Assembly: GCA_017531845.1 (NCBI GenBank)
Contig: JAFXKI010000011.1
Coordinates: forward strand, 1-64,000
Length of the DNA: 64,000 nt
Reading direction: 5' to 3'
Source: Opitutales bacterium
GTDB lineage: Bacteria > Verrucomicrobiota > Verrucomicrobiia > Opitutales > UBA953
Numbering within the stretch: position 1 is the first letter of the stretch; the number at the start of each line of letters is the position of its first letter. Of the stretch, positions 50,921-56,456 are shown piece after piece. The notes beneath the pieces were generated by a model. That model made no database searches, was not told the DNA's origin, and worked only from the letters and a program-made list of their open reading frames with translations. Position numbers and translations under genes: made by a program.

Positions 50921-51385
50921 TTACACTTCCACGAGTTCACTGACTTTACAATCGACAAACGGAACGACAGCCGTCGCCCAAGTCATTCCGACACCGAATG
51001 CACTTAAAAGCAATTTACGTTCACCGCACATGCGCTCCCGCAGTTCCGAAGCAATCGTCAGCGGAACAGAAACCGAAGATGTATTCCCGAATTTTTCAAC
51101 ACACGACGGAATTTTCTTCGCATCCAATTTCAATTTTTTCGCCAAGTAGGAATTGATGAAGTTATTCGCTTGGTGAAACACGTAAAAATCGAGCGCCTCT
51201 TTGTCCGTTCCCGCACTGAGCGCAACCACGTGGCGATTTTCCCCGAGATACGCCGAGAGTCCCGCTTCAAACGCGTTCACGTTCGGACCGAGCGGCACCA
51301 CCCAATTCGTGTCGAAGGCTTCTTTGATAAAGTCTTGTTCATGCCCGCCCATGTGCGCGAGCGAAAGCCAAATTTTTTTGTTCAT
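50921..51385 (-). CDS. Chimeric ORF: DegT aminotransferase start joined to KAS III end
   Basis: The 154-residue frame is a fusion. Residues 1-60 match the N-terminus of DegT/DnrJ aminotransferases (IWLSLAHMGG, NWVVPLGPNVNAFE, ALSAGT). Residues 61-154 match the C-terminal third of 3-oxoacyl-ACP synthase III, with FHQAN (His) and FGNTSS (Asn). The KAS III active Cys and the aminotransferase Lys are both missing, so neither activity can remain. The junction falls on a GCGGGAACG word (51206-51214), which codes Ala-Gly-Thr. In the intact DegT gene at 52905 the same SGT codons also contain GGGAACG. I infer a deletion between two words, unless it is an assembly artefact. Confidence 0.7.
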   Translation of the reverse strand: MNKKIWLSLAHMGGHEQDFIKEAFDTNWVVPLGPNVNAFEAGLSAYLGENRHVVALSAGTDKEALDFYVFHQANNFINSYLAKKLKLDAKKIPSCVEKFGNTSSVSVPLTIASELRERMCGERKLLLSAFGVGMTWATAVVPFVDCKVSELVEV

Positions 51386-54513: not shown

Positions 54514-55455
54514 CTATTTTTCGGAAAAATATTTTATCGTTGCTGCAATGCCGTCGCGCACGGGAACGGGAAGTTTTTCTACACCGAGAGCGCGCTTGAT
54601 TTTTGCGTTTGAAACGACGTAATTTTCCGTAAGCTTGTTGAGGCGATCTTTGTTAAACGGCAAGTGCAAGAGCGTTCCCGCCGATGCCGCCAAGCGCAAA
54701 AATCCTGCGGGAACGCAAACTACGCGAGCCGTCTTCCCGTGCACCGAGCAAATCGTTCGCACCAAATCATTGGTCGAAAGCGGCTCGTCATCCGCAACAT
54801 TGTAAATTCCGGACGGCGGAGATTTTTCCAGCATTTGCGCCAAAATAAATTCCAAATTCTCTATCGCCAAAAACGAGCGGCGATTGTCAAATGCGCCAAG
54901 CGGCCAAGGCAAACCGCGCCTTACGACAGCGTAGAGCAAATTTAAATTTCCCTTGTTACCGGGACCGTGAATCATGCACGGACGAATTATATAAACGCGC
55001 TTTCCGCCGGATTCGTCTTTTTCAAAATCAAAATTTTCGCGCAAAAAACTTTCTGCCGCGATTTTGCTTTCTCCGTAGGGTCCGACCGGCGCAGGAACGA
55101 CGTCCTCCGTCAGCGCACCGCCGGAAACAAAATCCGCCGCAGCCTTTACTGAACTGAAAAAGTAAAAATGCTTCGCCGGGGATTTGAGAAACCAGGCGAA
55201 AATCTTTTTCGTCAGCTCCGTATTTACATCAAAGTAAACCTGCGCACCCGCACGATTTTTCAAATCGTGAGCTTTTCCCGCAAGGTGAATCACGGCGTCA
55301 ACGGCGGGTAGCGTTCCCGCCTTCAAATCCGCCCAAGAAAACTCCGCAGAGCCGGGTTGCGCGCTTAGCCCGAAAATTTCGTGTCCATTTTTCTTAAACG
55401 CCACCGAAATATTTTTTCCGACAAATCCGCCGATTCCCGTGATGAGAATTTTCAT
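54514..55455 (-). CDS. NAD-dependent epimerase/dehydratase (WbpV-like)
   Basis: The 313-residue extended SDR has the NAD motif TGIGGFVG (6-13), a YGESK catalytic phrase (about 130) and RPCMIHGPGNKGN. The family includes GalE/WbpV-type UDP-HexNAc C4-epimerases that work with WbpL transferases, and a WbpL-like gene lies 2 kb away. Its start codon overlaps the stop of the upstream epimerase by one base, so it depends on that gene for translation. The two epimerases look like paralogues. Confidence 0.88.
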   Translation of the reverse strand: MKILITGIGGFVGKNISVAFKKNGHEIFGLSAQPGSAEFSWADLKAGTLPAVDAVIHLAGKAHDLKNRAGAQVYFDVNTELTKKIFAWFLKSPAKHFYFFSSVKAAADFVSGGALTEDVVPAPVGPYGESKIAAESFLRENFDFEKDESGGKRVYIIRPCMIHGPGNKGNLNLLYAVVRRGLPWPLGAFDNRRSFLAIENLEFILAQMLEKSPPSGIYNVADDEPLSTNDLVRTICSVHGKTARVVCVPAGFLRLAASAGTLLHLPFNKDRLNKLTENYVVSNAKIKRALGVEKLPVPVRDGIAATIKYFSEK

Positions 55456-56456
55456 TACGCCGCCTCCTTTTCAACCGCGACGTAACGCGGCGGGAACAAA
55501 ACCGCGTTCCCGCGGAAAACAAGCGAATTAACTTTTATTAACGGGGGGAGGGGGGGGGGTAGTGCGATGTAGTTTTCGAGAATTTCGGCGGGAGTCCAGC
55601 CGAGTTCAGCGCGCGCTTTCGCGTTCGAGAACGTCAACGTTTCCGTAATCTTTTTCAGTCGAGAAGAGTCAATCGGCGCTTTTCCCAAGCAACAATCTCC
55701 GATGAGAGCCAAGCATTTTGCCAGCCAAAGCGGAATCGCAATCGGTTCTTTTTTTCCGAGCTGTCGGGAAATCAATTTCTCCAACTCAAGAAAACTCGGC
55801 GCACAGGTTGCGCACGCGTTGAAAATTCCGCCTTTTGCCTCGGAAAGCAGAGCCAAGCGGGCGAGATCTTCAACCATCACGATACTTTTTCGCGCCGCGC
55901 CCTGCCCGATTCTCAAATATTTTCCGGATTTCATGCCGCGCACCATCGCGCCGAGATTTCCCGGAGCGTCCGGTCCCGCAATCAGCGACGGACGCAAAAT
56001 TGTGAGAACGACTCCGTGTTTATCGCACCAATCTTTTAAAAAGGCTTCAGCCGCAATTTTACTTTTCGCATACGGCGACGTTCCCGCGAGCGCACTCTCC
56101 TCCGATATATTTTCTCCGCTTTCTTTCCCGTAAACAGCAACCGTGCTGATAAAAACGAACGCTTCCGGCGTTCCCGCGCGTTCCAATGCCGCGCAGAGAT
56201 TTTGCGTTCCCGTTAAATTGACATCAAAAAAAACTTTCGCCTCCGCTTCGGTTCGCGGCACGCTATGAGCCTTTCCGGCAGCATGAACGACAAGATCCGG
56301 TTTTTCCGACAAGCAGGGAATTTCACTTGCGAGATCCGCGACAATCGCGCTTCCCGAAGCGCGCCCCAAGGTCGTAACAACGTAATGTTTATCCAAAACG
56401 GGAAGTATATTTTTCCCGACAAATCCGGACGCCCCGGTCAGCAAAAGCTTTTTCAT
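55455..56456 (-). CDS. NAD-dependent epimerase/dehydratase with a poly-C tract near its end
   Basis: The ATG at 56456 gives 333 residues. The motifs TGASGFVG (7-14), the catalytic phrase YAKSK and RPSLIAGPDAPGN fit the extended SDR family. After the usual end near GWTPAEILENYIAL comes a Pro-rich stretch from C10-T-C6, then about 30 non-conserved residues. With nine or eleven C in the longer run the reading frame ends within about 12 codons. In the present state the stop overlaps the start of the next gene. Phase variation is inferred, not shown. Confidence 0.85.
   Translation of the reverse strand: MKKLLLTGASGFVGKNILPVLDKHYVVTTLGRASGSAIVADLASEIPCLSEKPDLVVHAAGKAHSVPRTEAEAKVFFDVNLTGTQNLCAALERAGTPEAFVFISTVAVYGKESGENISEESALAGTSPYAKSKIAAEAFLKDWCDKHGVVLTILRPSLIAGPDAPGNLGAMVRGMKSGKYLRIGQGAARKSIVMVEDLARLALLSEAKGGIFNACATCAPSFLELEKLISRQLGKKEPIAIPLWLAKCLALIGDCCLGKAPIDSSRLKKITETLTFSNAKARAELGWTPAEILENYIALPPPLPPLIKVNSLVFRGNAVLFPPRYVAVEKEAA
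55543..55559 (-). repeat. Homopolymer tract C10-T-C6 (on plus strand G6-A-G10)
   Basis: The plus strand holds GGGGGG (55543-55548), A (55549), and ten G (55550-55559). It lies within codons of the epimerase gene and is the longest homopolymer of G or C in the window. Such tracts are prone to slippage. Confidence 0.9.

Follow-up and report, generated by a model that had tools for sequence, protein, structure and literature searches.

Can a change in the length of a short homopolymer set the translation of the following gene, while leaving the gene that carries it in working order? The question is raised by two adjoining epimerase genes in the 64,000-nucleotide stretch of Opitutales DNA that we analysed (hereafter the window), where the initial annotation had claimed a C10-T-C6 sequence near the C-terminus of the first epimerase. 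Direct reading of the minus strand at 55543-55559 confirms this exactly, giving ...GCACTA-C10-T-C6-GTTAATAAAAG..., and simulated changes in tract length reproduce the further claim that C9 and C11 close the frame early whereas C10 holds it open to the start of the second epimerase: past the tract, the frame reaches a stop at 9 nt with C9 and at 19 nt with C11, and with C10 it stays open for 92 nt and ends on a TAA that overlaps the ATG of gene 2 (TAATG). The locus thus shares with known contingency loci a C/G homopolymer long enough for frequent slippage and a length change that alters the reading frame with a defined result (C9, C10, C11), and in the C10 frame it shows the overlap of one gene's stop with the next gene's start that is expected of translationally coupled genes. 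The features concerned are as follows:

55455 to 56456, minus strand: gene 1, SDR-family NAD-dependent epimerase/reductase (Pfam Epimerase PF01370), stop TAA at 55455-55457
54514 to 55455, minus strand: gene 2, second SDR-family epimerase/reductase (Pfam Epimerase), its ATG within the TAATG of the gene 1 stop
55550 to 55559, minus strand: C10 homopolymer, the proposed slippage switch, read directly
55543 to 55549, minus strand: T-C6 continuation of C10 (T at 55549, C6 at 55543-55548), read directly
55538 to 55540, minus strand: early stop reached with C9
55528 to 55530, minus strand: early stop reached with C11
55458 to 55559, minus strand: non-conserved tail, with translation confined to the C10 (mod 3) frame
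55463 to 55468, minus strand: Shine-Dalgarno sequence AGGAGG of gene 2, within the tail, read directly

Apart from C10, no C/G run in the 64-kb window exceeds 6 bases. At least three CCCCCCCC matches appear in 18 of 100 dinucleotide shuffles of the window, so that, on the window alone, the C10 is unusual but not impossible.

The two SDR proteins are 34% identical, with the YxxxK motif visible in the alignment for both, and the conserved part of gene 1 ends at about residue 299. A homologue of gene 1, L040, comes from a MAG contig that bears the label uncultured Prevotella, and matches residues 2-293 at 58% identity. It stops a few residues past the conserved GW-P---EN motif, where the window tract starts, in an overlap with the start of a WecA-like gene. 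Since this homologue ends where the tract begins, the tail falls outside the conserved enzyme, and the gene 1 protein would therefore probably survive its loss in working form. An AlphaFold model of gene 1, built on a three-row alignment, reached a mean pLDDT of 49, which is too poor for judging the tail, and within the genus we found no orthologue of gene 1, the best match being 35-36% identical over part of the gene. In the initial annotation, the C-terminal tail had been a further output of the switch; the tail is indeed open to translation in the C10 frame only, but it lies beyond the conserved enzyme. The surface-polysaccharide setting that had been claimed holds up, as the neighbours include a WecA-like gene (Glycos_transf_4), a DegT aminotransferase and a WbuC-type cupin; the epimerase pair, of sugar-nucleotide type but putative as to the exact sugar, is accordingly of the surface or host-interaction kind typical of contingency loci.

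Translational coupling of overlapping genes can operate by start-site unmasking. From the anatomy above and the comparison with relatives below, the locus is likely to be a phase-variable translational-coupling switch, and we lean, on somewhat better than even terms, towards the specific reading that the tract acts as a slipped-strand switch of coupling located immediately downstream of the functional part of gene 1. A tract of C10 (by rule also C7 or C13) would keep gene 1 in the linking frame, so that ribosomes would continue through about 31 codons of dispensable tail and the structured gene 2 leader before stopping on the gene 2 start codon (TAATG), from which gene 2 would be translated by coupling. 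At other lengths, they would stop 9-19 nt past the tract, with about 75-85 nt still to go to gene 2, whose start would stay partly buried and whose product would be weakly made. Gene 1 would be little affected, working in all states. The assembled C10 would thus represent the linked state with gene 2 on, and C9 or C11 the unlinked state with gene 2 low. We infer that the tract slips in living populations, with effects on gene 2 and on the surface glycan. Because gene 2 carries its own good Shine-Dalgarno sequence, coupling may nonetheless matter little to it.

The same layout recurs at gene junctions in related species. Five other species of the genus carry poly-C at the 3' ends of surface-polysaccharide genes, in a shared design in which the end of the conserved domain is followed by the tract and, usually, one length class in three is open to the next ATG. 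The other two length classes stop within 4-32 nt, and the linking stop overlaps the next ATG, often with a GAAAGGAG-like Shine-Dalgarno sequence and GCCGCATGA before it. In the relatives' cases that were scanned, Pfam domains finish ahead of the tract. These junctions, with the assembled tract, its predicted state and the length of the link, are:

L095: Wzy-like polymerase; C11, linked, 154 nt
L096: octopine-dehydrogenase-like gene; C11, unlinked, 93 nt
L102, L105 and L130: PglD-like acyltransferase to GNAT, 65 nt; C10 linked in L102, C11 unlinked in L105, C10 linked in L130
L102, L105 and L130: ATP-grasp junction; C12 unlinked in L102 and C14 linked in L105, with a 744-nt open link in both; C10 linked in L130, 153 nt
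L133: hexapeptide transferase; C11, unlinked, 91 nt
L074: junction to a short ORF; C10, linked, 175 nt

The 744-nt link of L102 and L105 includes an antisense ORF that looks toxin-like by eye. A gene related to that of the PglD-like acyltransferase junction is found at L158 (G007 contig 121), where the acyltransferase cassette is duplicated. Here two of the three length classes point to the next gene, in one case directly and in the other by way of a mini-ORF relay. Orthologous junctions differ between species in their predicted state, with C10 linked against C11 unlinked in one case and C12 unlinked against C14 linked in the other, and the flanks of the PglD junction are nearly identical in L102 and L105, yet tract length and predicted state differ.

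How much of this layout would arise by chance? A linking frame alone is found at 19-20% of control or random positions and at 18 of 70 tract-free junctions, and we therefore rejected an open frame to the next ATG as stand-alone evidence. Of the 44 C-sense tracts that have a downstream gene close by, 9 show the full pattern, with one linking frame and a stop within 33 nt in each of the others, compared with 1.0% of control positions. In two of these nine there is no upstream gene, and three are mutually orthologous. Counting five independent gene junctions gives P of about 6e-5, and six junctions, with the L133 start re-called, give about 4e-6; as the controls and the class definition were set after the first cases had been seen, both values are guides only. 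Among G-sense tracts, 1 of 28 shows the full pattern (C-sense versus G-sense, p = 0.08).

If the switch works by coupling, one would expect the downstream start to be masked in the mRNA. We computed the energy needed to open the region from -14 to +10 around the downstream start, and obtained a median of 14.7 kcal/mol at 12 junctions versus 6.3 kcal/mol at 288 control starts, with 5.7 kcal/mol at 30 naturally overlapping starts (p = 1e-4 for buried starts at nine independent junctions). The junction class still stands out against composition-preserving shuffles (p of about 0.006), a signal driven by L096, L105, L130, L133, L095 and L074, and there is little masking at L130b, L105c and L158. 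At L133, an 11-bp stem holds the AUG in one arm and the Shine-Dalgarno sequence in the loop. A stem common to L102, L105 and L130 has two pairs changed on both sides across the three sequences, a covariation that is suggestive only, as 55 of 500 shuffles did equally well. The window has a predicted hairpin of its own:

55453 to 55487, minus strand: predicted 11-bp hairpin, arms 55477-55487 and 55453-55463, with the gene 2 AUG in the 3' arm and the Shine-Dalgarno sequence mostly in the loop

Its arrangement is like that at L133, its strength is what composition predicts (z -0.58; 0.20 by a second shuffle comparison), and it yields to a different fold when 110 nt are considered. The gene 2 start in the window lies at the 92nd percentile of controls, and at z 0.2 relative to shuffles. 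The initial claim that tract length sets the coupling to gene 2 thus gains from the recurring architecture, the orthologue pairs in opposite states and the group-level burial of starts, the last being a property of the junction class.

The strongest rival in which the tract still switches is transcriptional polarity: in the unlinked lengths of a slippery, phase-variable tract, the untranslated, hairpin-containing spacer would allow Rho, or an inverted octamer pair, to end transcription before gene 2. The early stops do leave about 75-85 nt untranslated (up to 740 nt at L102 and L105), polarity would account for the junctions without a buried start (L130b, L158), and the spacer in the window contains such a pair:

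55490 to 55512, minus strand: inverted octamer pair, CGGGAACG at 55505-55512 and partner GTTCCCGC at 55490-55497, one end base imperfect

However, no U-run follows the hairpin, so that as read it is not an intrinsic terminator, and translational control better accounts for the buried starts seen at most junctions; we consider polarity unlikely, though credible. A reading that dispenses with switching altogether is that an ordinary homopolymer came by drift to lie in a tail that is not conserved, with an open frame that is due to chance or is the relic of overlapping genes. The frequency of the linking frame at control positions (19%), the local hairpin that does not go beyond composition, and the presence of only five such tracts in the organism's own genome are all as drift would have it, but the layout with two early stops recurs in other species, and orthologues with near-identical flanks change state, and we hold this reading to be quite unlikely.

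Least probable, in our assessment, is a sequencing or assembly error in the length of the tract, with the true gene ending shortly past it. Homopolymers of this size are error-prone, and a comparable tract in one relative (L102 5238-5251) borders an assembly gap; against this, long C tracts occupy the same orthologous sites in independent genomes, and a miscount by one or two bases would leave the tract in place.

We surveyed C/G tracts in the genome and its relatives, inspecting the sequences of most tracts of the genus, with one genome per species. The assembly (1.69 Mb, 11 contigs) contains five C/G runs of at least 9 bases (9, 10, 10, 11 and 12 bases). The G11 tract on contig 11 frameshifts a hexapeptide acyltransferase adjoining glycosyltransferase genes, which would be intact with G10 or G13; this is the textbook intragenic layout, and we count it in favour of the slipped-strand switch. 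Each of the seven other species of the genus has 6-37 tracts per genome; within the same family, genus g2 mostly has 0-4, and g3 and g4 have higher and variable numbers. The 40 tracts of G009, from another genus, were set aside, since the sampled ones lack the coupling layout and look incidental.

The genus also has classical intragenic and promoter-like tracts. A poly-C tract in an MmeI-like type IIG enzyme (L078 2422-2431) lies between the target-recognition and C-terminal domains, with a similar case, by eye, at L117 2480-2494, and another tract is found in a type I specificity-like subunit gene (L123 2543-2553); such tracts in the relatives' restriction-modification genes are possible phasevarions. 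At L089, L091, L092, L093, L125 and L160, G/C tracts fit, by eye, the spacer between promoter-like hexamers (for example, TTGACA-acttttgaG9-TAAGAT at L092), and some of the promoter-like tracts lie upstream of genes that appear, by eye, to encode PEP-CTERM-like tails.

Simple-sequence contingency loci of poly-G/C are classical in Campylobacter, Neisseria and Helicobacter (reviewed in PMC8355987), and share several features with the tracts seen here: a C/G homopolymer of 9-15 bases in surface-glycan genes, a three-frame logic, and a genome-wide set that includes restriction-modification genes and promoter-like spacers. Unlike in those loci, the present tract lies past the functional domain, leaving gene 1 whole and making the next gene the likely target. 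In Akkermansia muciniphila, a gut bacterium, as the present organism may be too, that likewise has long C/G tracts in surface-polysaccharide genes, phase variation by mononucleotide repeats has been proposed, including at an acyltransferase with a C10 repeat; the proposal, in the portion of PMC3048395 consulted, makes no link to translational coupling of the kind suggested here. The switch proposed here also resembles tlpB-hp0102 of Helicobacter pylori, where the length of a G-repeat controls a downstream LPS glycosyltransferase gene; unlike the window tract, that repeat is in a 5' leader and acts through the sRNA RepG with graded control, and its authors considered direct translational coupling unlikely (PMC8295292). 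The overlap of the gene 1 stop with the gene 2 ATG and the buried starts at several junctions are like those of classical translational coupling, from which the present arrangement would differ in that a slippery tract makes the coupling switchable. Our literature search of open-licence papers found no published case joining a slippery repeat with translational coupling.

We tentatively suggest, at a little less than even confidence, that these junctions form a distinct contingency class, with poly-C past the functional end, a dispensable tail in one frame and a masked start, such that the next gene is switched and the first is spared, recurring across the genus and including mini-ORF relay versions (L158). 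If so, slippage would switch a gene without breaking the gene that bears the repeat, and coupling would become heritable and reversible. Such loci would escape scans for phase variation that consider only disrupted genes or spacers in promoters, since the tract-bearing gene looks intact in every state. A little-studied lineage would also gain a broad phase-variable repertoire (glycans, restriction-modification, surface proteins).

Two further observations concern the window more generally. An ORF at 50921-51385 (minus strand) joins the N-terminus of a DegT aminotransferase to the C-terminus of a ketoacyl-ACP synthase III, as if two genes had been fused by deletion or an assembly chimera had formed. 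The octamer CGGGAACG occurs in 192 copies in the window versus 6 expected, and in 5192 copies genome-wide versus 86 for the reversed control, a density of about 1 per 325 bases, with an extended consensus of approximately GCGGGAACGC. Elsewhere in the genus, five species have about 5.3-6.6 thousand copies each, G001 has 1362 and G007 has 546, and all other genera tested are near the control level; the octamer resembles a DNA-uptake or similar signal specific to the genus.
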